Shown here one piece after another: positions 1 to 17,300 of a stretch of 64,000 nt of DNA. The position numbers and the translations under genes were made by a program. Below the pieces are notes generated by a model. The model searched no databases. It was not told the origin of the DNA and saw nothing but the letters and a program-made list of their open reading frames with translations. Location: the NCBI GenBank assembly GCA_903813345.2, contig CAIIXF020000008.1, forward strand, positions 34,682,867 through 34,746,866. Direction: 5' to 3'. This DNA is from Owenia fusiformis. Taxonomy: Eukaryota > Annelida > Polychaeta > Sabellida > Oweniidae. Position 1 is the stretch's first letter. The number at the start of each line of letters is the position of its first letter.

Positions 1-202
1 AACATTGCAAGCTTAAACTCCCTAATATGTCACTAATTATCGGTGGTGACATAAATGTTCCTCGAGTAAGAATTATTAACGTACCCTCAACGTTTAGTAA
101 TTCCATATCCCACATGTACCACCCACTCGATAGCTTGTTAAAGGCTGCATTTTTGAATTAAATATTGTTTTCTAAATTCATATATCTCAGAAAATTACAC
201 TA
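1..202. other. part of intron 2 of the proximal tetraspanin gene
   Basis: A+T-rich sequence. I searched the minus strand for the expected third exon (a RYLQT-like motif after an acceptor) and did not find it, so the gene should continue beyond base 1. Confidence 0.5.
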
Positions 203-439
203 CAGTTGGGGACATAAATAAATGACAGGTGGATTTGCTGAAGTGAGGATTTCCCATGTTAAAAATAAGAGAATTTACAAGAGGCCATAAATCAGTGGAT
301 GAGATTATACAAAATGTAAAATATACAAATTTTAAGGGATATGTATCCAGACAATATTGGAAATTATGGGCTTTCAGACCACCATAATTAGGAAATGGTG
401 ATCGAAAATCGACCTGTCATTTATTTTTGTCCCCAACTG
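203..439. mobile_element. 237-bp non-autonomous Tc1/mariner-type element (MITE)
   Basis: Terminal inverted repeats of about 32 bp start with CAGTTGGGGACA at both ends and differ at only about two positions. TA dinucleotides flank the element at 201-202 and 440-441, the target duplication typical of Tc1/mariner. There is no coding capacity. It lies in intron 2 of the proximal tetraspanin gene; its TA target begins three nucleotides after the exon 2 border. Confidence 0.85.
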
Positions 440-444
440 TATAC

Positions 445-1454
445 CTCAACAATCAACGATGAAAATATTGAGCCACCGAATCCAGAGAGTATGTCATCGA
501 AGAACAACATGATTTTTATACTGCACCCACTCTTGTACAATGTCACATTGGTTTCGTTGTAGTTTGGGTGCATGTTGAAACTGTGAACGCCTTGATGTAT
601 ACAGGGCCTGGGGGACATCGGGTCACAACAACTAAATGGCACATCGTCCGTGTAATATTGGTTATTTTTCATTTTTCTATAATCAGAGGCACAATGGGTA
701 ACATTAAGCAGGATAGAATTTTGATAATAACAATGGGCATCTAGTAATGTATTAAGCATAGCAGAATTTTGAATGTAAGAAGAAAAAAGCCAAATTGAAA
801 GCCCGGGATTGAAAGGTTATGTTTTTTTGGAATGTAGTTTGTAGTTTTATAAATTCATCATTTCGTATCGTCTTTATTTACTTACGCTTGTACTTGAGGA
901 GATTTAAGATCGAGAAAACCATTACTGATCCAAGAGATATTAAACCAATCAGTGTAATTCCCAACGCCGCAGCAATTGTATTCTAAATTTAATGCATCAA
1001 TTGTTCTTTTCACTTGCACGCCATTTTTGTAGTTCCTCAACGATTTCATAATCCCATGGTTGAATGAGTGACGCAACATATGTGTGTGGCTAAAGCACAT
1101 GGACGCCGCGGATATAATGATGATTTGGACGGTGAGCATGATAACCATATAAAGGACCATGACACTCTCGAATCTCTGGCGGGTATCGTAGAAGCTGCAA
1201 TCATAGCAGATTTTTGCGCCGACGATATGGAAAAATATCAATATAGTCCCAACTGAGATAAGCATATGGGGAAGTAAATTATAGTGGTCGTAAAACAAAA
1301 GAATATTTATACGGACTTCGATTTTGGATCCTAAGTAAAGGCCCATGAGCACAACCGCCACTCCAAATACTGCGAGGGAGGCATGAAATCCAGCAGCCAC
1401 TTGTCCCAATGTTTGCCTCCCTCTTTCTGTAAATTGTATAGCCAGGACAGCCAT
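445..1454 (-). CDS. PRPH2-like: peripherin-2/ROM1-like tetraspanin, proximal copy (exons 1-2; 3' end off window)
   Basis: Four-pass membrane protein of the tetraspanin superfamily, PRPH2/ROM1 branch; the vertebrate members shape photoreceptor disc rims. Exon 1 is 1454-886 (569 nt, donor GTAAGT); exon 2 is 676-445 (232 nt, acceptor ATTATAG, donor GTATAC). Joined, they give 267 residues. Three hydrophobic segments lie near residues 18-41, 58-82 and 97-120. The large extracellular loop has CCG at 161-163, then DWFNISWISN, then VPFSCCDPMSPRPC in exon 2, which closely matches vertebrate peripherin-2. The intron phases (2, then 0) equal those of human PRPH2. The start is the first Met, in an AAACATGG context, before the conserved N-terminus. 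Exon 3 is not in 1-444; from the sister gene's 972-nt intron it should lie beyond base 1. Exon 1 is about 77% identical in protein to the gene ending at 4470. Loop sequons are at N166, N172, N230 and N233. The retinal role is known for vertebrates and only inferred here. Confidence 0.9.
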
Positions 1455-2133
1455 GTTTCTCCAAAGTTACTCATTCATCAAAATGCTTTTAAGATTTAAT
1501 CCAAATTAAAATCTAAATAGTGTCTTTCTTCTCCGTGATTGCTACTTTACATTCTTCATGTTTCTTCTTCTTGTATATTTTCGAAAATATAACAAACAAA
1601 ACAGTTGCCATGTGATGTATTATTACAAAGCAATGCCATATGTGACGTCACATACTACAACAATAAGACCAAATGTAATTCTGATTTTCCAGCCATGACG
1701 TCATGTACTGTTGCTATGGTGAACTTTGTATATACATCAAATTTAATTTTGATATTGAAGAGAGGTCAAGATCATTAGAGGCTTAATGTCAGCAGATGCC
1801 TCAGTTCAGCTTTATAAAATTAAAGGGAATGATAATATCGTATAATGAAATGTGGTATACTTGTAATATATTGTGTGATATAGCTGGAAATTCTAAACCT
1901 CGGCTAACTGAAAATCGTCCGAGAAATAGGTTTAAATGTAAAAAACAAAATTAATTTGAATTCGTCGTCTACCGTTATTTGTAATAATGTTTTTTTTATG
2001 ATAACTGATCTATAAACATTTATTGGCAGCATCTTCAATTCATGTTTAATTTATTAACACAAAACAACAACTACATTACACCTGAAGAAATTACTTGGGC
2101 AGCTTTTATTGTACATTAACCGTTCAAAAAGGA
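1455..2133. other. intergenic region between the two tetraspanin genes
   Basis: This stretch holds the upstream region of the proximal gene, including two CRE-type palindromes at 1643-1650 and 1696-1703. It also holds the far 3' flank of the distal gene, with a minus-strand AATAAA at 2105-2110. I see no further gene. Confidence 0.6.
1643..1703. promoter_or_regulatory. paired CRE-like palindromes upstream of the proximal gene
   Basis: TGACGTCA occurs twice, at 1643-1650 and 1696-1703, about 190 and 245 bp upstream of the start codon at 1454. Full 8-bp CRE palindromes are bound by CREB/ATF bZIP factors. The second gene has the same arrangement in aligned flanking sequence, which supports a conserved promoter element. 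Function is inferred. Confidence 0.55.
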
Positions 2134-2353
2134 ATTACAAATATTGCACTAGTCCCTTGTGAGAGTTTGCCGAATTTCTTCTAAATATATTTCATCATTT
2201 GCTTAGAAAACTGTTTATTTCCGATTCCCTTTTACACAACCAAGCCGAGTTCAGAAAGAAATTGCAAGTACGGCACAGGTCCCATGTGGGTATTTTCTTC
2301 TAAATATATTACATCACTATCACTTTCTTAGTAAACTGTTTCTTTCGGATTCC
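2134..2353. repeat. degenerate direct duplication in the 3' flank of the distal gene
   Basis: Positions 2134-2228 and 2261-2353 are diverged copies of the same segment, about 126 bp apart. Shared blocks include TTCTTCTAAATATATT and AAACTGTTT. A weaker third match starts near 2381, inside the end of exon 3 (ACAGCACAGG against ACGGCACAGG). The copies lie mostly in the presumed 3' untranslated region and look old. Confidence 0.6.
2214..2219 (-). terminator. candidate polyadenylation signal of the distal tetraspanin gene
   Basis: AATAAA on the minus strand, about 160 nt after the stop codon that ends at 2376. A second AATAAA lies at 2105-2110. Which one is used cannot be told from sequence. Confidence 0.4.
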
Positions 2354-2375
2354 AAGCCAAGTCACGCCCTTTTTG

Positions 2376-2561
2376 CTAGCCATACAAGATACAGCACAGG
2401 CCATCGCAACCACAGCAACGACAACAACAACAAATGCCATCGCAACAGCGAAAGGGGCACTCATCCATCAGGTACCCAGGCGCACTGCCACGCGCCATTC
2501 CCGACATTCGAGCCGTAAATATCGACGTTTGGAGGTACCGCATTTGTAACAACACAATCCA
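2376..2561 (-). CDS. PRPH2-like: exon 3 of the distal peripherin-like gene, with cysteine-rich tail
   Basis: This 61-codon exon was found by joining frames across intron 2. It starts after TTTTCAG at 2562 in phase 0, as exon 3 of human PRPH2 does. It encodes the end of membrane segment 4 (WIVLLQ), then MRYLQTS at the same distance from the splice site as LRYLQTS in human PRPH2. About 20 residues of small and basic type follow, then a 27-residue block with 12 cysteines, including a run of four. That block is written by a TTG/TGT-rich stretch, so codon-repeat expansion may have made it. The minus-1 frame of the same stretch is hydrophobic; the frame used here is preferred because it alone continues the conserved family motif. 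Confidence 0.85.
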   Translation of the reverse strand, partial: WIVLLQMRYLQTSIFTARMSGMARGSAPGYLMDECPFRCCDGICCCCRCCGCDGLCCILYG

Positions 2562-4470
2562 CTGAAAATGGACATAATGCTCATAATAAAGAATATAGCA
2601 TATCTGAACACATGCTTAATGCCTCAGTCACATTTGATCTACGGCAACCGTACGGCTGTCGTAGCTTCCCAAAACCGAGAGAATGCAACATAAAATAAAC
2701 GGATAATCAATACGATGTAGATTTTCTATATTTTTGGGAAGCTACGGTCGCCGTACCGTACGGTTGCCGTACCCCTGGCGTAGAGTAAATGTGGCCGAGG
2801 CTTTAATGAACATGTAGATGGTGATATATGCATGGGAATAGTTTGTGAGGATCTATATCCCCGATAGAATCTAAACTCTTTTGTTAGTCATGTATTATCT
2901 TAAATACTTTAGGAAATCAAAAAACCATTCATTTTCAACAACTTGTGTAAATATGAATATACTAGCTCAACATTTAATTACTCAATGCAAGGGTTTTTTG
3001 AACATGTCCTCCACCCACCTGAATAATCAGTTTGAGCTGTATTTAACAGTCATACATGGTTTTAAACGATAGGTTTCGAGACATATTGTGCACGTTGAAA
3101 AATGAGGTCTGTTAAGCTAAATTATCCAAGGGAGACGTTTCTTGCTTCTAGAGATAACTATATCACCATGTATATATGTTTTAATTGATGGGAATAATGT
3201 TGAGACCATTTGAAGGGTTATCACAAATAATTATTTTTGAATTTCAGTGGATTGAATTGCAATAATAAAGACAATTGAATAATTAGAAAAACGTTCCAAT
3301 GTACAGTACATAATGTCGATTAACGCTCATCATGAGTGGTTTCATTCGTTTTTTTGCTGTGTATGTTCATCAAGAGAGAAATATTAACGTACTCTGAGAA
3401 ATTTGTAACGTACGTGTTTGAATTAAATGTAATTTTCAATATTGAATGGCTCAGAAACGGCGTGAATTCAAATGCGTTGACGCATGGTTATATATGTAGT
3501 AGTTATAGTCAATGCATTTAGTGGAGAGCCTACCTCTACAATTGATGATGTAAAGATGGAACGTCCAAATACAGAGAGAAGTTTCTCAAAGAATAACATG
3601 ATTTGTTTACTGCACCCATTCTTGTACAGTGTCACTTTGGTTTTGTCGTAATTTGGGTGCATGTTGAAACTGTGAACACCTTGATGTATACAAGGCCTAG
3701 GAGACATCGGGTCACAACAACTAAATGGTACATCGTCCGTGTAATATTTGTTATTCTTCATTTTTCTATAATCAGAGGCACAATGGGCAACATTAAGCAT
3801 GATCGAATTTTGTTAATAAGAAGTTCACAATCAAAATGTTGGATCATGTTATATAAAATTTAAAAATTCTTTCCGTTTCGTCATTATTTAATGCAACTTA
3901 CGCTTGTACTTGTGAAGATTCGAGATCGAGAAAATCATTTCTGATCCAAGAGACTTTGAACCAATCAGTGTAACTTCCATTGCCGCAGCAATTGTAGTCT
4001 AAATGTAGTGCATCAATTGTCCTCTTAAGATGCAGACTATTCTTGTAGTTCTTTAATGAATTTATTATTCCATGGTTGAATGAGTGACGCAGCATATGTG
4101 TGTGGCTAAAGCACATGGAGGCAGCGGCTAAAATTATGATCTGGAAGGTGAGCATGATAACCATATAAAGAACCATGACACTCTCGAATCTCTGGCGGGT
4201 ATAGAAGAAGCTGCAATCGTAGCACATTTTAGCGCCAACAGCATGCAGAAATATCAAGGTACACCCAACTGAGATTAACATATGGGGAAGTAAATTATAG
4301 TGGTCGTAATCCACAAGAACACCAAAGCGAACTTCGATTTTGGATCTGAGGTAGACGCCCATAAGCACAACCGCCACTCCAAATACTGCGAGTAGGACGT
4401 GGAATCCAGCAGCCACTTGTCCCAATCTTTGCCTTCCCTTTTCTGTAATATTTATCGCAAAGGCAACCAT
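2376..4470 (-). CDS. PRPH2-like: peripherin-2/ROM1-like tetraspanin, distal copy (complete, 3 exons)
   Basis: Complete tetraspanin of the peripherin-2/ROM1 branch. Exons are 4470-3902 (569 nt), 3765-3534 (232 nt) and 2561-2376 (186 nt), 987 nt in all, or 328 residues plus stop; human PRPH2 has 346. Splice signals: donor GTAAGT and acceptor ATTATAG for intron 1 (136 nt, phase 2); donor GTAGGC and acceptor TTTTCAG for intron 2 (972 nt, phase 0). Membrane segments lie near residues 18-41, 58-82, 97-120 and 243-275. The large loop carries CCG at 161-163, DWFKVSWIRN, FSCCDPMSPRPC (204-215) and C241, giving the six loop cysteines of the family. MRYLQTS (274-280) right after membrane segment 4 matches vertebrate peripherin LRYLQTS. 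The tail is unusual: 12 cysteines in the last 27 residues, where vertebrate tails are acidic. Same strand as the proximal copy, whose start codon lies 3016 bp away: a tandem duplication. Confidence 0.92.
2562..3533 (-). other. intron 2 of the distal tetraspanin gene
   Basis: A 972-nt intron bounded by donor GTAGGC (ending at 3533) and acceptor TTTTCAG (ending at 2562), phase 0. It carries the fold-back element at 2620-2802. The rest, 2807-3533, is A+T-rich and I recognise nothing in it. Confidence 0.8.
2620..2802. mobile_element. 183-bp fold-back MITE flanked by TTAA
   Basis: The two halves are inverted copies. The left arm starts GCCTCAGTCACATTT and the right arm, reversed, starts GCCTCGGCCACATTT. 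Both go on through CTACG, GCAACCGTACGG and GTAGCTTCCCAAAA. The right arm carries extra bases in the middle. TTAA lies at both edges (2616-2619 and 2803-2806), as for piggyBac, Kolobok or Sola3-type elements. No ORF. Its near end is 58 nt upstream of the exon 3 acceptor, so the intron transcript could form a long hairpin there. Confidence 0.75.
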
Positions 4471-5132
4471 GGTCCTTTCAAAGATACGAAATCACCATAG
4501 TGTTCTTTGATTTATTCCTAATCTCATATGTAATTATTCCTAACTACTCCAAGGGTGCAACCCTTCATTCTTTATGTCTCTTTTACTTTTGTGTCTTCCG
4601 TTGCCAAGTGATATATGCTTACAAAACAATGCCATTCATGACGTCATACAAATCAAATTCTCATTTCCCATCTATGACATCATATGCTGTTGATATGGCT
4701 ACATGAATGTTTGAAAACAATTTCCATCGTGATAAACTCCAATAAAAGAAACAATTTATTAATGAAACCAAATATATGGAAACAGAAAAAATGATATGAT
4801 ATTTGAGGACTAACTACATGAGTAATCACGTGTTCTGATATGTGAAACCTATCAATTGCAAGCTTATTTGGAGTCTATGTTGTTCAAGTGGATTTTATAT
4901 ACATGAATACATTATTTAGACGTTTAAAAATCCGTTTGATCATCACCGATGTTAAAGGGCATAATCGAGTTCTACGAAGTAGCAACAGCCTGGAGCCACA
5001 GGGACTTTTGCTGTCAAAATGGAACATATTTGACGTTGATCATGAACAATTGTAAAACTTATCTGTTAGTAACAATCAAATACACAAACAAACGATGAAA
5101 CATGTAAATGATATCTATCTGCTTGGTCAAAA
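4471..5132. other. upstream region of the distal tetraspanin gene
   Basis: Contains the CRE-like sites described separately. Apart from those I see no gene or repeat in this A+T-rich stretch. Confidence 0.5.
4639..4682. promoter_or_regulatory. CRE-like palindrome and a degenerate partner upstream of the distal gene
   Basis: TGACGTCA lies at 4639-4646 and a one-mismatch version, TGACATCA, at 4675-4682, about 170 and 205 bp upstream of the start codon at 4470. The flanks (CAATGCCAT before the first, GCTGTTG or CTGTTGC after the second) align with the matching region of the proximal gene, so the block was carried through the duplication. Confidence 0.5.
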
Positions 5133-5357
5133 ATGCCTTTGAAGTTACAGAAGATATTCAAGAAGAAAAAGAAACCTCGAATATTTCTGCTATCACCGAT
5201 CTTGGGTGCAGAGAATGAAAACATGAACAAAGTTCCAAAAAAGATATATGAACTTAAGAAAATAAATATGAAAACTGGTGAAACAGAAATTCCAAGTGAC
5301 AACATGAAAAGTACAGAACCGCTACACTTAGAAAATGATAGCGCTGGAAATGAGTAG
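5133..5357 (+). CDS. doubtful small ORF or terminal exon, 74 codons
   Basis: An open frame of 74 residues starts at ATG 5133, eight codons after an in-frame stop. The product is lysine-rich near the start (five lysines in a row) and more acidic and polar towards the end, with no membrane segment or motif that I recognise. Two AATAAA signals follow at 5440-5445 and 5455-5460, 80-100 nt after the stop, as expected for an mRNA 3' end. It could be a small single-exon gene, the last exon of a plus-strand gene, or chance. Confidence 0.25.
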   Translation: MPLKLQKIFKKKKKPRIFLLSPILGAENENMNKVPKKIYELKKINMKTGETEIPSDNMKSTEPLHLENDSAGNE

Positions 5358-5460
5358 GCCTAATGTCTAGACGGGTCTTGTTCAATGTGCGGCTACAGAG
5401 GAATGATCTCCACTGCCAAGTTCCAAAACAAAGTTCGAAAATAAACGTTTGTCAAATAAA

Positions 5461-5834
5461 GGAACAGGCTATATAGGAACAGGCTGATAATTTGATATTT
5501 TGTAATAATGATTAAGAGGTTCAAATTGATTCGGAAAATATTTGCTTTTGGCCAACAATACATGTTTAATGTTTTGTACCCATTGATTTATACAACAACG
5601 AATTTGTGAGGATAAGCAAGCCATATTTTATATTCAGTATCATCTGTCCATGTTAAGAACAAAACTATACGATAAAACTCATATAAAATAAGCAATTCTT
5701 TACTGACTAAAAGTATATGAGGTGCAGTAGCCGTACCCATCTACAGGTAAATGACCACGTGAGTTGCTCAGCTAAAATGTTTGAATGATTTGGCCTGCAA
5801 AATGATGATGCACATGTACGTATGGACAATCTCG
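5461..5834. other. unannotated intergenic sequence
   Basis: I recognise no gene, repeat or regulatory site here beyond A+T-rich sequence leading to the transposon that starts at 5842. Confidence 0.4.
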
Positions 5835-6932
5835 GGTGGACCAAGGGCGTTACAATACCCGGGAATTTATCGGTTCGTCCAGTACTTGTTTGTGATAGCG
5901 CCCTCTGTAGGTCACTGTGCTTATAGCCTACAGTAATACGGGGTGGGATATCGGGAATTCGGTCAGTTTCTATCCGTCGATTTCGCTATGAATTGAAGCA
6001 AGTGTGACCACTTTATCCACTTAAACAATTTGATAATTGATTAAATCTTTAAACAAAATCGATAAACACGTTATACACTTCCTATCTCCTTAGAAATTAG
6101 CATGTATTTATGGATTGTGTTTTCGAACAAGGCTCGACCCACCCCAATAGGGAAATCCTTATGCTAATTAGTATGACGTCATATTTTCCTGGGGAATCCT
6201 AGATTTCAAGGCCTCAGTCTGTTATTGTGTCAAATGTAAACGCTCTTGGGACGCTCTTTTGCAGACAGAAAATTGACAGATTAGCTTTTAACTTTCAGCT
6301 TTGATGTTTAAATATTCTGTATTTCTACCGGACTTCTTGCTGAATATCATATAATGTTATAACTTGATTTGGATCATTGCCTGATTGATCATTCTGAAAT
6401 TTTGATTGTGATTCATGATTGATTGGCAAGAAAAATAATTCCTATTGTTTTCCAGCGAAGTCAAAATGTTACAGCATGAGTTATAATGTCGAGTTTGCAT
6501 CATGTTAAATTCTGCTAGTGATTAGAAGTCCATGCACAAGCATACACATAAGAGACAAACACACCCAGGCTCCAGGCCGTGGATGGAAATATAAAACTAT
6601 TTAAGGCACAAACTGGTATTAATAGACCGATATGTAGTGTCTGCCATGTATTGAAGGTAAACCAATCTGTATTATTAATGTTTCTTCTATCAATACATGG
6701 GTTGTGCAATAGAAAAGCAATGGCACAATCAAAAATGTGCATATCAATCGTGAATATCTCTCGGTTCAAAGCTTATTTCCAACAGAATCGTGTCAAAATA
6801 TGTGTCTGAGTAACAGTTATACATTATAAGATCGCAAACTCTTACCAATTATCAGCCGAATGGCTCATTTTCAACGAAATGTCCTTAAGACAACAGCCCT
6901 GGGTCGCGCCTGAGACCAAAAACTACTTCAAA

Positions 6933-8142
6933 CAAGGGCGTTACAATACCCGGGAATTTATCGGTTCGTTCAGTACTTGTTTGTGATAGCGCCCTCTGTA
7001 GGTCACTGTGCTTATAGCCTACAGTAATACGGGGTAGGATATCGGGAATTCGGTCAGTTTCTATCCGTCGATTTCGCTATGAATTGAAGCAAGTGTGACC
7101 ACTTTATCCACTTAAACAATTTGATAATTGATTAAATCTTTAAACAAAATCGATAAACACGTTATACACTTCCTATCTCCTTAGAAATTAGCATGTATTT
7201 ATGGATTGTGTTTTCGAACAAGGCTCGACCCACCCCAATAGGGAAATCCTTATGCTAATTAGTATGACGTCATATTTTCCTGGGGAATCCTAGATTTCAA
7301 GGCCTCAGTCTGTTATTGTGTCAAATGTAAACGCTCTTCATGCTTGGGACGCTCTTTTGCAGACAGAAAATTGACAGATTAGCTTTTAACTTTCAGCTTT
7401 GATGTTTAAATATTCTGTATTTCTACCGGACTTCTTGCTGAATATCATATAATGTTATAACTTGATTTGGATCATTGCCTGGTTGATCATTCTGAAATTT
7501 TGATTGTGATTCATGATTGATTGGCAAGAAAAATAATTCCTATTGTTTTCCAGCGAAGTCAAAATGTTACAGCATGAGTTATAATGTCGAGTTTGCATCA
7601 TGTTAAATTCTGCTAGTGATTAGAAGTCCATGCACAAGCATACACATAAGAGACAAACACACCCAGGCTCCAGGCCGTGGATGGAAATATAAAACTATTT
7701 AAGGCACAAACTGGTATTAATATACCGATATGTAGTGTCTGCCATGTATTGAAGGTAAACCAATCTGTATTATTAATGTTTCTTCTATCAATACATGGGT
7801 TGTGCAATAGAAAAGCAATGGCACAATCAAAAATGTGCATATCAATCGTGAATATCTCTCGGTTCAAAGCTTATTTCCAACAGAATCGTGTCAAAATATG
7901 TGTCTGAGTAACAGTTATACATTATAAGATCGCAAACTCTTACCAATTATCAGCCGAATGGCTCATTTTCAACGAAATGTCCTTAAGACAACAGCCCTGG
8001 GTCGCGCCTGAGACCAAAAACTACTTCAAATAGCCCTCCCCTAATTATATTGGATAATCACATTTATGCGTGCGCGCGCAGCTCATCCAATGAACGAAAC
8101 GCCACTTCCCGCTGAAATCACCGGGTATTGATCTTTCCCTTG
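6933..8142. mobile_element. non-autonomous DNA transposon (inner copy, 1210 bp)
   Basis: A full-length copy of the same element lies inside the outer copy. Its ends are CAAGGGCG at 6933 and CCCTTG at 8142. It is flanked by a 7-bp duplication CTTCAAA at 6926-6932 and 8143-8149, the same duplication length as the outer insertion. It differs from the outer copy by about four substitutions, an extra 7 bp near 7339 and one A near 8163, so the two copies are close relatives and the insertion is recent. Confidence 0.85.
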
Positions 8143-8262
8143 CTTCAAATAGCCCTCCCCTAAATTATATTGGATAATCACATTTATGCGTGCGCGCGCA
8201 GCTCATCCAATGAACGAAACGCCACTTCCCGCTGAAATCACCGGGTATTGATCTTTCCCTTG
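8031..8262 (+). repeat. two tandem copies of the transposon's right-hand 113-bp end
   Basis: TAGCCCTCCCC...CCCTTG occurs at 8031-8142 (inner element) and 8150-8262 (outer element), separated by CTTCAAA. It looks like a 119-bp tandem repeat but is fully explained by the nested insertion. Each copy has an alternating purine-pyrimidine run, GTGCGCGCGC. Confidence 0.8.
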
Positions 8263-8269
8263 GGTGGAC

Positions 8270-8600
8270 CATGTGGTATGTATTATCGCAAATTAATCAG
8301 AAGCAACAAGGTCTTTGTTTTTGTTGAGTCAATAAGTTTCAACATATGGACATTGACATTCCAGTGCAGATCGTATTATACCCACCATACATATAGTCAT
8401 TGATACCGGAGGCCTCTAATTCCATTTAAAGTGGGTCCTCGAAACAAGAATGTTCACGTTTGTACTACTAATTCAGTCTGCACCTCAAAAAGAAAAAAAT
8501 GATAAAAAGCGAACGATAAACGCTCCTTGCGTTCTTCTTTTTGATGAAGAAACGTTCGCTATTTTGACGCAGCACAGTTTTTTCGAAAGTTACACTAATG
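8270..8600. other. unique sequence between the transposon and the satellite array
   Basis: About 330 bp in which I recognise no gene or repeat. It ends in ACTAATG directly before the first array base at 8601. Confidence 0.5.
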
Positions 8601-9063
8601 GCAAAACTGCCCTAATTCACGTCACCATACTAGTCAATGGGCAAAAGGGCAAACGCCTGACTTTTTATCTCGAGTTATGGATTTATGTGGCCTCACTGGC
8701 CTATCTGAGGTTCTAAAGCTATGTCTAAGCTACATCTTGACACTAAACTCGATAGGGGCCAATCATCTACTTTTTGAAATAATTGGTCAATTGTGACACT
8801 ACCCCCTCTCTCTGCAGACACAAATTGAAATTCACAAAAATGAAGGCAAAATTAATACGCCACTTGACTCGAAATTTTCCTTCAGATAACCCAAATAAAC
8901 GCATTTTCAGAAGAAATGGCATGTTGCCATTGCAAAAAGATTACAACTGTGCCTACATACTAGCTTACTGACTCGTCATGATCACAATTGTGTTGGGACT
9001 ACATTTATTTTTGAATACTACTTTTTTCTATTCAGCGGAAGTGACGTATTAGGGCATTTTGGC
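8601..9063. mobile_element. T segment: 463-bp MITE-like element, first of 34 array copies
   Basis: T is the part of L units that S units lack. Its left end is GCAAAACTGCCCTAATTCAC and its right end, reversed, is GCCAAAATGCCCTAATACGT; both go on to CGTCAC or GTCAC with small gaps, an imperfect inverted repeat of about 25 bp. CTAATAG follows T at 9064-9070 and also precedes every later T, while S units have CTAATAG once. This is the pattern of a transposon with a 7-bp target duplication. If CTAWTAG is counted as part of the inverted repeat, the boundary shifts by a few bases. Other T copies start at the first base of each L unit. No transposase is encoded, and the superfamily is unassigned. Confidence 0.75.
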
Positions 9064-9070
9064 CTAATAG

Positions 9071-9929
9071 CCACATGGTTGGATGATTTCTGGCTTTAAA
9101 TTGCGTTTTTCCAATTTACTAGAGTTTTTCAAGTAGTTTTGTGCAGTTTAAGAATATTCTGACAGCAATTATGAAAAATATGGCTACTTCATCACCCCTG
9201 GGGTCATTTTTCCAAGAACCCAATGGTTTTCCTTTAAATTTGACTAGTTTTTCATTTACATCATGAAATCCACTGCCTGATGGTGACATTTTTCAGTATC
9301 GTGTCAAGAAATTGAGTATTTTATTGCATATTGCAATTTTTAGCCAAAATCACTGAACCGTGAACTAGAAAATTGGACAAATTTGACCCACTTTTTGGCA
9401 AAATCTTACTAAAATCATCACTTTTTCATACTTTATTCCATTCAACAACCTCCTGATTTGAAAAATGATGACAAATTTGATCAGTTTTGACTCTGGCCTA
9501 GAGAATTGGGACTTTTGAGATATTTTTAGCTCGAATGTAGTCATTCAGAGTGAACAAATACATCAAAAATTGACACTTAACTCACCAATTTCTGACTGCA
9601 CCCCCGATATGTACCTTCTTTCTATACTGGAAACCATAAGATGGGAAATTCAATCTTTATGATGAATAGCAACTCGTTGGCTTCCCCATTTACGACAACA
9701 AATGACATTTAGGGGTCACTAAGGACAAAATTGTAGCCAAATATCGTCAAAATCAGTGGTTTTTGGGGTAAAAAGCGAAAACTGCTGATTCAGCAAAAAC
9801 ATTAAATTTGTTCATGAAAATTCCCCTTTTTGCCTCCGTCCAAAATATGTTTCACACTAATAAACCTCAATTCTGGTCGATTCTGAGTAGTTTTAAAAAA
9901 TTTTGGTCACTTTCACATGTGACTAATAG
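9071..9929. repeat. B segment: 859-bp satellite core, first copy
   Basis: B is common to L and S units and alone makes up an S unit. It is A+T-rich with no long ORF on the plus strand. It starts CCACATGG and ends CATGTGACTAATAG, so B-B junctions form an interrupted palindrome (CATGTG, 9 bases, CACATG). It contains a short palindrome ATTGCATATTGCAAT. No similarity to a known family was recognised. Confidence 0.85.
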
Positions 9930-12587
9930 GCAAAACTGCCCTAATTCACGTCACCATACTAGTCAATGGGCAAAAGGGCAAACGCCTGACTTTTTATCTC
10001 GAGTTATGGATTTATGTGGCCTCACTGGCCTATCTGAGGTTCTAAAGCTATGTCTAAGCTACATCTTGACACTAAACTCGATAGGGGCCAATCATCTACT
10101 TTTTGAAATAATTGGTCAATTGTGACACTACCCCCTCTCTCTGCAGACACAAATTGAAATTCACAAAAATGAAGGCAAAATTAATACGCCACTTGACTCG
10201 AAATTTTCCTTCAGATAACCCAAATAAACGCATTTTCAGAAGAAATGGCATGTTGCCATTGCAAAAAGATTACAACTGTGCCTACATACTAGCTTACTGA
10301 CTCGTCATGATCACAATTGTGTTGGGACTACATTTATTTTTGAATACTACTTTTTTCTATTCAGCGGAAGTGACGTATTAGGGCATTTTGGCCTAATAGC
10401 CACATGGTTGGATGATTTCTGGCTTTAAATTGCGTTTTTCCAATTTACTAGAGTTTTTCAAGTAGTTTTGTGCAGTTTAAGAATATTCTGACAGCAATTA
10501 TGAAAAATATGGCTACTTCATCACCCCTGGGGTCATTTTTCCAAGAACCCAATGGTTTTCCTTTAAATTTGACTAGTTTTTCATTTACATCATGAAATCC
10601 ACTGCCTGATGGTGACATTTTTCAGTATCGTGTCAAGAAATTGAGTATTTTATTGCATATTGCAATTTTTAGCCAAAATCACTGAACCGTGAACTAGAAA
10701 ATTGGACAAATTTGACCCACTTTTTGGCAAAATCTTACTAAAATCATCACTTTTTCATACTTTATTCCATTCAACAACCTCCTGATTTGAAAAATGATGA
10801 CAAATTTGATCAGTTTTGACTCTGGCCTAGAGAATTGGGACTTTTGAGATATTTTTAGCTCGAATGTAGTCATTCAGAGTGAACAAATACATCAAAAATT
10901 GACACTTAACTCACCAATTTCTGACTGCACCCCCGATATGTACCTTCTTTCTATACTGGAAACCATAAGATGGGAAATTCAATCTTTATGATGAATAGCA
11001 ACTCGTTGGCTTCCCCATTTACGACAACAAATGACATTTAGGGGTCACTAAGGACAAAATTGTAGCCAAATATCGTCAAAATCAGTGGTTTTTGGGGTAA
11101 AAAGCGAAAACTGCTGATTCAGCAAAAACATTAAATTTGTTCATGAAAATTCCCCTTTTTGCCTCCGTCCAAAATATGTTTCACACTAATAAACCTCAAT
11201 TCTGGTCGATTCTGAGTAGTTTTAAAAAATTTTGGTCACTTTCACATGTGACTAATAGGCAAAACTGCCCTAATTCACGTCACCATACTAGTCAATGGGC
11301 AAAAGGGCAAACGCCTGACTTTTTATCTCGAGTTATGGATTTATGTGGCCTCACTGGCCTATCTGAGGTTCTAAAGCTATGTCTAAGCTACATCTTGACA
11401 CTAAACTCGATAGGGGCCAATCATCTACTTTTTGAAATAATTGGTCAATTGTGACACTACCCCCTCTCTCTGCAGACACAAATTGAAATTCACAAAAATG
11501 AAGGCAAAATTAATACGCCACTTGACTCGAAATTTTCCTTCAGATAACCCAAATAAACGCATTTTCAGAAGAAATGGCATGTTGCCATTGCAAAAAGATT
11601 ACAACTGTGCCTACATACTAGCTTACTGACTCGTCATGATCACAATTGTGTTGGGACTACATTTATTTTTGAATACTACTTTTTTCTATTCAGCGGAAGT
11701 GACGTATTAGGGCATTTTGGCCTAATAGCCACATGGTTGGATGATTTCTGGCTTTAAATTGCGTTTTTCCAATTTACTAGAGTTTTTCAAGTAGTTTTGT
11801 GCAGTTTAAGAATATTCTGACAGCAATTATGAAAAATATGGCTACTTCATCACCCCTGGGGTCATTTTTCCAAGAACCCAATGGTTTTCCTTTAAATTTG
11901 ACTAGTTTTTCATTTACATCATGAAATCCACTGCCTGATGGTGACATTTTTCAGTATCGTGTCAAGAAATTGAGTATTTTATTGCATATTGCAATTTTTA
12001 GCCAAAATCACTGAACCGTGAACTAGAAAATTGGACAAATTTGACCCACTTTTTGGCAAAATCTTACTAAAATCATCACTTTTTCATACTTTATTCCATT
12101 CAACAACCTCCTGATTTGAAAAATGATGACAAATTTGATCAGTTTTGACTCTGGCCTAGAGAATTGGGACTTTTGAGATATTTTTAGCTCGAATGTAGTC
12201 ATTCAGAGTGAACAAATACATCAAAAATTGACACTTAACTCACCAATTTCTGACTGCACCCCCGATATGTACCTTCTTTCTATACTGGAAACCATAAGAT
12301 GGGAAATTCAATCTTTATGATGAATAGCAACTCGTTGGCTTCCCCATTTACGACAACAAATGACATTTAGGGGTCACTAAGGACAAAATTGTAGCCAAAT
12401 ATCGTCAAAATCAGTGGTTTTTGGGGTAAAAAGCGAAAACTGCTGATTCAGCAAAAACATTAAATTTGTTCATGAAAATTCCCCTTTTTGCCTCCGTCCA
12501 AAATATGTTTCACACTAATAAACCTCAATTCTGGTCGATTCTGAGTAGTTTTAAAAAATTTTGGTCACTTTCACATGTGACTAATAG

Positions 12588-14305
12588 CCACATGGTTGGA
12601 TGATTTCTGGCTTTAAATTGCGTTTTTCCAATTTACTAGAGTTTTTCAAGTAGTTTTGTGCAGTTTAAGAATATTCTGACAGCAATTATGAAAAATATGG
12701 CTACTTCATCACCCCTGGGGTCATTTTTCCAAGAACCCAATGGTTTTCCTTTAAATTTGACTAGTTTTTCATTTACATCATGAAATCCACTGCCTGATGG
12801 TGACATTTTTCAGTATCGTGTCAAGAAATTGAGTATTTTATTGCATATTGCAATTTTTAGCCAAAATCACTGAACCGTGAACTAGAAAATTGGACAAATT
12901 TGACCCACTTTTTGGCAAAATCTTACTAAAATCATCACTTTTTCATACTTTATTCCATTCAACAACCTCCTGATTTGAAAAATGATGACAAATTTGATCA
13001 GTTTTGACTCTGGCCTAGAGAATTGGGACTTTTGAGATATTTTTAGCTCGAATGTAGTCATTCAGAGTGAACAAATACATCAAAAATTGACACTTAACTC
13101 ACCAATTTCTGACTGCACCCCCGATATGTACCTTCTTTCTATACTGGAAACCATAAGATGGGAAATTCAATCTTTATGATGAATAGCAACTCGTTGGCTT
13201 CCCCATTTACGACAACAAATGACATTTAGGGGTCACTAAGGACAAAATTGTAGCCAAATATCGTCAAAATCAGTGGTTTTTGGGGTAAAAAGCGAAAACT
13301 GCTGATTCAGCAAAAACATTAAATTTGTTCATGAAAATTCCCCTTTTTGCCTCCGTCCAAAATATGTTTCACACTAATAAACCTCAATTCTGGTCGATTC
13401 TGAGTAGTTTTAAAAAATTTTGGTCACTTTCACATGTGACTAATAGCCACATGGTTGGATGATTTCTGGCTTTAAATTGCGTTTTTCCAATTTACTAGAG
13501 TTTTTCAAGTAGTTTTGTGCAGTTTAAGAATATTCTGACAGCAATTATGAAAAATATGGCTACTTCATCACCCCTGGGGTCATTTTTCCAAGAACCCAAT
13601 GGTTTTCCTTTAAATTTGACTAGTTTTTCATTTACATCATGAAATCCACTGCCTGATGGTGACATTTTTCAGTATCGTGTCAAGAAATTGAGTATTTTAT
13701 TGCATATTGCAATTTTTAGCCAAAATCACTGAACCGTGAACTAGAAAATTGGACAAATTTGACCCACTTTTTGGCAAAATCTTACTAAAATCATCACTTT
13801 TTCATACTTTATTCCATTCAACAACCTCCTGATTTGAAAAATGATGACAAATTTGATCAGTTTTGACTCTGGCCTAGAGAATTGGGACTTTTGAGATATT
13901 TTTAGCTCGAATGTAGTCATTCAGAGTGAACAAATACATCAAAAATTGACACTTAACTCACCAATTTCTGACTGCACCCCCGATATGTACCTTCTTTCTA
14001 TACTGGAAACCATAAGATGGGAAATTCAATCTTTATGATGAATAGCAACTCGTTGGCTTCCCCATTTACGACAACAAATGACATTTAGGGGTCACTAAGG
14101 ACAAAATTGTAGCCAAATATCGTCAAAATCAGTGGTTTTTGGGGTAAAAAGCGAAAACTGCTGATTCAGCAAAAACATTAAATTTGTTCATGAAAATTCC
14201 CCTTTTTGCCTCCGTCCAAAATATGTTTCACACTAATAAACCTCAATTCTGGTCGATTCTGAGTAGTTTTAAAAAATTTTGGTCACTTTCACATGTGACT
14301 AATAG
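12588..14305. repeat. array units 4-5 (S S)
   Basis: Unit starts at 12588 and 13447, each 859 bp. The junction ACTAATAGCCACATGG shows the T-less form. Confidence 0.95.
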
Positions 14306-17300
14306 GCAAAACTGCCCTAATTCACGTCACCATACTAGTCAATGGGCAAAAGGGCAAACGCCTGACTTTTTATCTCGAGTTATGGATTTATGTGGCCTCA
14401 CTGGCCTATCTGAGGTTCTAAAGCTATGTCTAAGCTACATCTTGACACTAAACTCGATAGGGGCCAATCATCTACTTTTTGAAATAATTGGTCAATTGTG
14501 ACACTACCCCCTCTCTCTGCAGACACAAATTGAAATTCACAAAAATGAAGGCAAAATTAATACGCCACTTGACTCGAAATTTTCCTTCAGATAACCCAAA
14601 TAAACGCATTTTCAGAAGAAATGGCATGTTGCCATTGCAAAAAGATTACAACTGTGCCTACATACTAGCTTACTGACTCGTCATGATCACAATTGTGTTG
14701 GGACTACATTTATTTTTGAATACTACTTTTTTCTATTCAGCGGAAGTGACGTATTAGGGCATTTTGGCCTAATAGCCACATGGTTGGATGATTTCTGGCT
14801 TTAAATTGCGTTTTTCCAATTTACTAGAGTTTTTCAAGTAGTTTTGTGCAGTTTAAGAATATTCTGACAGCAATTATGAAAAATATGGCTACTTCATCAC
14901 CCCTGGGGTCATTTTTCCAAGAACCCAATGGTTTTCCTTTAAATTTGACTAGTTTTTCATTTACATCATGAAATCCACTGCCTGATGGTGACATTTTTCA
15001 GTATCGTGTCAAGAAATTGAGTATTTTATTGCATATTGCAATTTTTAGCCAAAATCACTGAACCGTGAACTAGAAAATTGGACAAATTTGACCCACTTTT
15101 TGGCAAAATCTTACTAAAATCATCACTTTTTCATACTTTATTCCATTCAACAACCTCCTGATTTGAAAAATGATGACAAATTTGATCAGTTTTGACTCTG
15201 GCCTAGAGAATTGGGACTTTTGAGATATTTTTAGCTCGAATGTAGTCATTCAGAGTGAACAAATACATCAAAAATTGACACTTAACTCACCAATTTCTGA
15301 CTGCACCCCCGATATGTACCTTCTTTCTATACTGGAAACCATAAGATGGGAAATTCAATCTTTATGATGAATAGCAACTCGTTGGCTTCCCCATTTACGA
15401 CAACAAATGACATTTAGGGGTCACTAAGGACAAAATTGTAGCCAAATATCGTCAAAATCAGTGGTTTTTGGGGTAAAAAGCGAAAACTGCTGATTCAGCA
15501 AAAACATTAAATTTGTTCATGAAAATTCCCCTTTTTGCCTCCGTCCAAAATATGTTTCACACTAATAAACCTCAATTCTGGTCGATTCTGAGTAGTTTTA
15601 AAAAATTTTGGTCACTTTCACATGTGACTAATAGGCAAAACTGCCCTAATTCACGTCACCATACTAGTCAATGGGCAAAAGGGCAAACGCCTGACTTTTT
15701 ATCTCGAGTTATGGATTTATGTGGCCTCACTGGCCTATCTGAGGTTCTAAAGCTATGTCTAAGCTACATCTTGACACTAAACTCGATAGGGGCCAATCAT
15801 CTACTTTTTGAAATAATTGGTCAATTGTGACACTACCCCCTCTCTCTGCAGACACAAATTGAAATTCACAAAAATGAAGGCAAAATTAATACGCCACTTG
15901 ACTCGAAATTTTCCTTCAGATAACCCAAATAAACGCATTTTCAGAAGAAATGGCATGTTGCCATTGCAAAAAGATTACAACTGTGCCTACATACTAGCTT
16001 ACTGACTCGTCATGATCACAATTGTGTTGGGACTACATTTATTTTTGAATACTACTTTTTTCTATTCAGCGGAAGTGACGTATTAGGGCATTTTGGCCTA
16101 ATAGCCACATGGTTGGATGATTTCTGGCTTTAAATTGCGTTTTTCCAATTTACTAGAGTTTTTCAAGTAGTTTTGTGCAGTTTAAGAATATTCTGACAGC
16201 AATTATGAAAAATATGGCTACTTCATCACCCCTGGGGTCATTTTTCCAAGAACCCAATGGTTTTCCTTTAAATTTGACTAGTTTTTCATTTACATCATGA
16301 AATCCACTGCCTGATGGTGACATTTTTCAGTATCGTGTCAAGAAATTGAGTATTTTATTGCATATTGCAATTTTTAGCCAAAATCACTGAACCGTGAACT
16401 AGAAAATTGGACAAATTTGACCCACTTTTTGGCAAAATCTTACTAAAATCATCACTTTTTCATACTTTATTCCATTCAACAACCTCCTGATTTGAAAAAT
16501 GATGACAAATTTGATCAGTTTTGACTCTGGCCTAGAGAATTGGGACTTTTGAGATATTTTTAGCTCGAATGTAGTCATTCAGAGTGAACAAATACATCAA
16601 AAATTGACACTTAACTCACCAATTTCTGACTGCACCCCCGATATGTACCTTCTTTCTATACTGGAAACCATAAGATGGGAAATTCAATCTTTATGATGAA
16701 TAGCAACTCGTTGGCTTCCCCATTTACGACAACAAATGACATTTAGGGGTCACTAAGGACAAAATTGTAGCCAAATATCGTCAAAATCAGTGGTTTTTGG
16801 GGTAAAAAGCGAAAACTGCTGATTCAGCAAAAACATTAAATTTGTTCATGAAAATTCCCCTTTTTGCCTCCGTCCAAAATATGTTTCACACTAATAAACC
16901 TCAATTCTGGTCGATTCTGAGTAGTTTTAAAAAATTTTGGTCACTTTCACATGTGACTAATAGGCAAAACTGCCCTAATTCACGTCACCATACTAGTCAA
17001 TGGGCAAAAGGGCAAACGCCTGACTTTTTATCTCGAGTTATGGATTTATGTGGCCTCACTGGCCTATCTGAGGTTCTAAAGCTATGTCTAAGCTACATCT
17101 TGACACTAAACTCGATAGGGGCCAATCATCTACTTTTTGAAATAATTGGTCAATTGTGACACTACCCCCTCTCTCTGCAGACACAAATTGAAATTCACAA
17201 AAATGAAGGCAAAATTAATACGCCACTTGACTCGAAATTTTCCTTCAGATAACCCAAATAAACGCATTTTCAGAAGAAATGGCATGTTGCCATTGCAAAA

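Follow-up and report, generated by a model that had tools for sequence, protein, structure and literature searches.

The window analysed here is a stretch of 64,000 nucleotides (C8:34682867-34746866), which from position 8600 onward is occupied by a tandem array of two components: T, a non-coding segment of 465 bp at 8600-9064 (GGCAAAAC...TTTTGGCC), and B, a passenger that lies between copies of T. Long units (L, 1329 bp) carry both, and short units (S, 859 bp) carry B without T. When parsed in 142 kb of joined sequence, the array comprises 74 T and 91 B over 113 kb, all in one direction and with T outermost. Eighteen of its joints are B-B joints, the S units, in which the neighboring B copies overlap by exactly CTAATAG (7 bases) with no remnant of T. 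The features of the window are the following.

8597-8599, + strand: AAT on the left side, one of the two copies of the 3-bp target duplication that flanks the entire array
8600-64000, continuing to window-frame position 121464 (C8:34804330), + strand: the array, T-(B/T)n
8600-9064, + strand: T, first copy, at the left edge of the array, 465 bp
8600-8625, + strand: left terminal inverted repeat of T, GGCAAAACTGCCCTAATTCACGTCAC
9041-9064, - strand: right terminal inverted repeat of T, reading GGCCAAAATGCCCTAATACGTCAC
9065-9069, + strand: TAATA, right flank of the first T (CTAATAG with the C of T and the next G)
9065-9928, + strand: B, passenger between two T, with TAATA at both ends
9924-9928, + strand: TAATA, left flank of the second T
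9929-10393, + strand: second T; 8600-10393 is a T-B-T arrangement that is also dispersed in the genome
12581-12587, + strand: first S joint, a single CTAATAG without T
13440, 18286, 24461, 26649, 28837, 32354, 34542, 43375, 44234, 58378, 60560 and 62732: starts of the other 12 S joints in the window

The right copy of AAT lies outside the window, at window-frame positions 121465-121467, and a second T-B-T, in the opposite direction, sits 8 host bases to the right of the array. As a long, homogenised tandem array (113 kb, with 0 substitutions among 44 B of its outer blocks), the structure is a satellite; Tandem Repeats Finder, whose longest period is 500, did not report the 1329-bp period. In the outer blocks (8.6-50.9 and 110-121.5 kb) every copy matches the reference unit at 100%, apart from a single B at 99.9%; identity is about 99% in the middle, and B falls to 96-99% at 51-63.6 kb. 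This pattern of identity across window-frame positions 8601-121463 reflects either block structure or an effect of assembly.

Upstream of the array, two similar pairs of stop-to-stop open reading frames (421-1466 and 3468-4491, both on the - strand) contain a CCG motif and look tetraspanin-like by eye; they sit within a duplicated segment. A segment of about 1.1 kb is present as a tandem duplicate at 5842-8000, 99-100% identical in the stretches compared, and sequence near 6955-7040 recurs as the left flank of the T insertions L062 and L098 and looks like a dispersed repeat. Directly before the array, at 8024-8262, a 120-bp unit containing TGCGTGCGCGCGCA occurs twice.

Element T and its target duplications

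The left and right ends of T form an inverted repeat (84% over 25 columns), and the window contains 66 matches to the T-end pattern at up to three mismatches, both ends pooled, compared with 0.86 expected. As described in the first-pass annotation, which proposed that T is a transposon with inverted ends, T starts GCAAAACTGCCCTAAT and its right end when reversed reads GCCAAAATGCCCTAAT; these lie at 8601 and at 9063-9048, respectively. These boundaries were correct except for one base per end, as an outer G and an outer C also belong to T, making it 465 bp with these two bases and 463 bp without them. Because the G preceding the exact 25-base T start is missing in one copy only, we consider the outer G and C best assigned to T, and the repeat flanking internal copies is therefore TAATA, of 5 bp. 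The CTAATAG that had been described on both sides of T does flank T at internal positions, for example at 9064-9070 and 9923-9929, but the copy at 8600 has it on the right side only. This copy is the left edge of the array, where host DNA (TTACACTAAT) is followed by the G of T.

T is not confined to the array. With up to three mismatches, the 25-base T start occurs at 712 places in the 498-Mb assembly, whereas the reversed control occurs at none, and T copies with different flanks are found on many contigs. Exact T starts that follow a G with C, G or T before it number 67 genome-wide; this context marks them as candidate outer left ends, as opposed to B-T joints. Sequence was read in short stretches around 60 of them, five lie within other loci, and those on C165 and C502 were left out. 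With G and C counted as part of T, an exact 3-bp target duplication is present in 47 of the 51 insertions for which both ends were read. Permuting the flank pairs over 2000 rounds gave a mean of 5.2 matches and a maximum of 13. The duplication was found in 15 of 17 solo T and in one further T with a LINE inside, in 27 of 29 T-B-T and T-(B-T)n insertions, in 3 of 3 arrays, and in the single T-B-B-T. Of the exceptions, L077, L083 and L089 have no matching 3-bp duplication (L083 being the most diverged solo T read, at 81%) and L101 has one of 4 bp. Outside this count are 18 loci with an unusable right end (L051, L053, L057, L062, L064, L066, L070, L071, L079, L084, L088, L090, L091, L096, L098, L106, L107 and L109), as well as L160, whose right end is missing, and the array on C10.

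A family norm of 3 bp, which follows from the 47 of 51 insertions, replaces the 7-bp target duplication first proposed; the internal CTAATAG, or TAATA, is a special case. The solo copies that were to be sought outside the array thus exist and carry duplications of their own, but of 3 bp and not 7, and the prospect that T would adjoin B everywhere is contradicted by solo T with other flanks. Together, the differing flanks and short duplications outside the array strongly support the identification of T as an inverted-ended transposon. Fourteen of the 47 targets are C-NNN-G, so that the duplication appears as 5 bp there. Since the pattern behind 47 of the 51 insertions is blind to targets ending in A, it yields a biased sample of target preference. 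A separate search returned 11 further left ends whose flank ends in A and is not the B joint; in 8 of these the flank is TAA or TTA. Their left sides alone were read, and they stand outside the count. An NNY target preference was dropped, as the pattern had excluded A before G and these A-ended left ends were later found.

Paralogous empty sites provide a second line of evidence. When the flanks of L097, a T-B-T insertion, are joined, 29 of the 42 matches are to other copies of a host repeat that cross the joint uninterrupted and contain AAT only once there. For the array itself, the left flank matches only itself. Its right flank is a repeat, and 8 of 11 matches start at query 117 or 118 and cross the joint between AATACACG and ATGACC; these matches to the joined site, which read through with a single ACG, therefore represent the empty site of the neighboring inverted T-B-T, not that of the array. 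We also observed that two T-B units, in the left flank of L064 and in L097/L138, lie in opposite directions at apparently the same host-repeat site (AATCCTCCTTGG) on different contigs. In L154, T is split by an apparent non-LTR retrotransposon with an A-rich tail, and the 3-bp duplication is kept.

T is short and has terminal inverted repeats, and the first T and B contain no stop-to-stop open reading frame above 117 aa; Rfam gave no match at gathering score in window positions 1-14500. These features, and a target duplication of fixed length at many sites, are those of a MITE or non-autonomous DNA transposon with terminal inverted repeats. T is best explained as a MITE-like, non-autonomous cut-and-paste DNA transposon with imperfect inverted ends of about 25 bp. 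PIF/Harbinger elements make 3-bp target duplications restricted to TWA, a restriction that T does not obey: none of the 47 duplications is TAA or TTA, in a sample that excludes most A-ended targets, and the 8 of 11 A-ended left ends indicate that TWA occurs without being the rule. Zator elements have 3-bp target duplications and a transposase related to PF07592; a PF07592 search gave no match, with the controls silent too. Helitrons, which have neither target duplication nor terminal inverted repeats, do not fit an element that has both. No autonomous partner or transposase was found among the end-pattern matches listed (100 of 178 for one pattern). Two long inverted pairs considered as autonomous candidates were rejected, L154 being T with a non-LTR retrotransposon and L160 and L161 being separate T copies.

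T-B-T insertions and the edges of arrays

In addition to its solo form, T occurs as T-B-T (1.8 kb) with one duplication outside, and T-B-B-T was read once, dispersed on C2 with the target duplication ACC. The first two T-B-T insertions read whole, L010 and L011, are 99.8-100% identical to the array in T and 98.6-99.0% in B. A passenger lying between two copies of an element and moving as a unit with one outer duplication is the hallmark of a composite transposon, and 27 of the 29 T-B-T and T-(B-T)n insertions carry such a duplication. All T copies within a T-B-T chain share one orientation, so that the left end of one copy could also pair with the right end of a copy further along as usable ends. 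We suggest that T-B-T, or a longer chain, is mobilised as a single composite; its one outer duplication is observed, and a transposase is presumed. T alone likely moves as well, and a solo T with a duplication could also be a T-B-T that collapsed between its two T.

Copies of T are more alike within an element than between elements. Three of four elements have 0 differences between their T copies, and the fourth, the C9 array, has one mismatch and one gap, compared with 1-16 mismatches between elements. The last 70 bases of the first and later T agree in 28 of 32 loci and differ in 4; where loci depart from the commonest T end (9 of 32), the same departure is present in both T in 5 and not in the other 4. 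This likeness is expected if T-B-T leaves homogenised arrays or if the copies convert one another.

Nearly every B copy read begins and ends with TAATA, although the first B of L095 starts TAAAAG. That the repeat flanking internal T is 5 bp, whereas the family uses 3 bp, counts against the explanation that we favor. TAATA could most simply derive from a founding insertion of T into pre-B DNA that made a longer duplication than usual, before B was duplicated. No founder locus for TAATA was found.

The arrays on C8, C1 and C9 have outer target duplications of AAT, TTT and AAA, respectively. The C9 array has T at both sides, and one of its B is broken by a separate 6.5-kb element (L153/L151) with long inverted ends (TAAAGGATGATTCTCGGTTTGGAGAACGAAG...); the 5,960 bases of L153 contain no stop-to-stop open reading frame above 126 aa. 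The array on C10 has T at its right edge and none at its left. Its left edge reads GGAACATT up to the border and AATAGCC after it, and its right edge reads C and then ATTATAAT, so that B starts at its own border with T; the ATT beside B on the left recurs immediately after the T of the right edge. The most economical interpretation is removal of the left T, with a one-base overlap. A 3-bp match would arise from composition alone with a chance of about 10% (the permuted rate), and the break at the exact T/B border is the stronger part of this evidence.

Arrays thus appear to be single T-B-T insertions grown in place. Growth would have proceeded by unequal exchange between direct repeats, giving rise to satellite arrays. 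Three arrays still have T outermost and a single duplication, that of the presumed founding insertion, and a fourth has lost its left T.

Origin of the short units

Each B-B joint carries one copy of CTAATAG, as had been noted for S in the first-pass annotation. From this, the S site had been taken as empty and the L site as filled, with deletion between the two CTAATAG copies as the alternative. For the present S units the relationship is probably the reverse, and the alternative is most likely the one that holds: loss of T between repeats fits better because S carries the B of its own array and because one array end has lost its T. Over the initial 46 kb of the C1 array, 0 substitutions separate the 16 B copies in S context from the 19 in L context, and the same is true of the outer C8 blocks (20 and 24 copies), whereas between arrays B differs by 8 substitutions for C1 versus C8 and by about 50 versus C9 (gaps ignored throughout). 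In the middle of the C8 array (63.8-110 kb; 28 L, 8 S) there is no split either, the mean differences being 2.4 for L-L, 2.1 for S-S and 2.3 for L-S. At 51-63.6 kb, the variable zone of C8, the mean difference among S copies (22.1) exceeds that among L copies (12.3), a larger spread that we ascribe to position.

The C9-type B provides a further comparison. Its motif has 64 matches, 19 on C9 and 45 on three unplaced contigs. All 18 motif intervals on C9 are S-like (857-859 bases), whereas on the unplaced contigs 39 of the 42 intervals are L-like and 3 are S-like, as judged by spacing. One B lineage thus appears to exist in both states, as an S-only array and, by spacing, as L-rich arrays. The unplaced contigs, C133, C327 and C450, hold L-spaced arrays and the placed C9 array is S-only; these could possibly be two alleles of one array. 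Genome-wide there are 130 S joints; the 100 listed fall in seven arrays, and at least one S lies outside arrays, on C2.

Because S has the B of its own array, because a B lineage is found in both states, and because the C10 array has lost an end T, we infer that S units are most likely produced by repeated in-place loss of T, with rejoining at TAATA. Inside arrays, T would be removed now and then and the break closed at the flanking TAATA repeat, leaving an S unit. Target duplications can act as microhomology that restores the pre-insertion state, according to the available text of one account (PMC9659126).

Concerted evolution of mixed founders could also make S and L alike without S being derived. 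In the opposite order of events, B, as an 859-bp satellite, might have come first, with T jumping once into a monomer at TAATA and L units spreading by exchange; S units would then be surviving empty monomers. The TAATA or CTAATAG that flanks T does resemble a target duplication, although at 5 bp it does not match the 3 bp of the family. The interior of the C9 array is B-only and its lineage is about 6% away, which also speaks for this order. However, T stands at both ends of this S-only array, flanked by the target duplication AAA, and was therefore already present there; moreover, the B lineage of this array is L-rich elsewhere, by spacing. No array with its ends read (0 of 4) lacks T at both ends, C10 lacking it at one, and B is common to the S and L units within an array. 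We consider an origin of the S units ahead of T unlikely. Loss of T from L units remains the preferred reading, and to the whole model, comprising a MITE-like T, a composite T-B-T, growth in place and inner loss of T, we assign a probability of about 0.72.

Relation to known systems and implications

LTR retrotransposons, and TRIM elements among them, have TG...CA ends, a primer-binding site, a polypurine tract and target duplications of 4-6 bp. If T-B-T were a small, TRIM-like retroelement of this type, then T would be the LTR, solo T would be solo LTRs and the arrays would be tandem LTR elements. The near identity of T copies within an element, with exceptions in 4 of 32 loci, is what such an element would show, but may also be explained by excision from homogenised arrays or by gene conversion. 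The series of T, T-B-T and chains with one outer duplication likewise resembles plant tandem LTR elements, as these are described in the available text (PMC11899658). However, T ends in GGC...GCC and not TG...CA, its duplication is 3 bp, and the C10 array lost its end T at the exact border. By eye, moreover, B starts TAATAGCCACATGG without a primer-binding site beside T and ends CACATGTGACTAATA without a polypurine tract. An LTR-type origin is accordingly very improbable. Least probable of all is plain tandem duplication of a segment holding a long-dead T that was uninvolved in S or dispersal: array growth needs unequal exchange alone, but a separate 3-bp duplication accompanies 27 of the 29 T-B-T or T-(B-T)n insertions, and L010 and L011 are close to the array in both T and B.

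A MITE-like T that carries B as part of a composite has parallels in several systems. Xstir and miDNA4 of Xenopus and CvA/Pearl-HindIII of bivalves likewise link a short, non-autonomous, inverted-ended element to a satellite, and in Xstir and miDNA4 the satellite repeats derive from or sit inside the MITE, as far as the available portions of these accounts go (PMC12628747, PMC9659126). Here, in contrast to Xstir and miDNA4, the monomer includes the entire MITE (463 of its 1329 bp), a passenger sits between copies of the MITE, and the arrays terminate in the MITE's own ends at every edge read except the left one on C10. In bacterial TIME-COMP, as presented in the accessible part of the report, two copies of a small inverted-ended element flank and move a passenger, as here (PMC13367494); the present case differs in that the genome is eukaryotic, the two copies share one orientation, and satellite arrays are built from the unit. 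Plant tandem LTR-retrotransposon arrays share with ours a repeated terminal repeat plus inside and one outer target duplication, but, on the available text, have 5-nt target duplications and coding sequence inside, whereas the present element has cut-and-paste ends and a 3-bp duplication (PMC11899658). Unlike in those arrays, no coding sequence was found in T or B, as judged by stop-to-stop open reading frames in the first T and B.

McGurk and Barbash reportedly proposed in 2018 that double insertions of a transposable element seed satellites, with tandem copies as the substrate, a likeness to the case described here. Tandems formed through repeated insertion at a single site are described in a review (PMC9659126), probably with reference to the same work. 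The arrays read here differ from that route in having one target duplication outside and the same TAATA inside. In the literature searched, the combination of a monomer made of MITE and passenger, composite movement, duplications at the array edges and inner loss of T was not found, and such an account may exist.

A bolder extension of the model, which we hold as a tentative possibility at somewhat below even odds, is that this is a self-seeding mobile satellite. Any left T end together with a later right T end would work as a pair; arrays would throw off pieces (T, T-B-T and T-B-B-T) that land with one 3-bp duplication and grow arrays, and loss of T would turn L arrays into plain S satellites bounded by T alone.

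The spread of satellites and the start of new arrays are often inferred from degraded remnants. Here, one genome holds, at high identity, solo T, T-B-T composites, short chains, an array that has no inner copies, and arrays of about 110 kb whose two edges retain the presumed founding duplication. With the proposed stages side by side, the step from transposon to satellite is directly testable.
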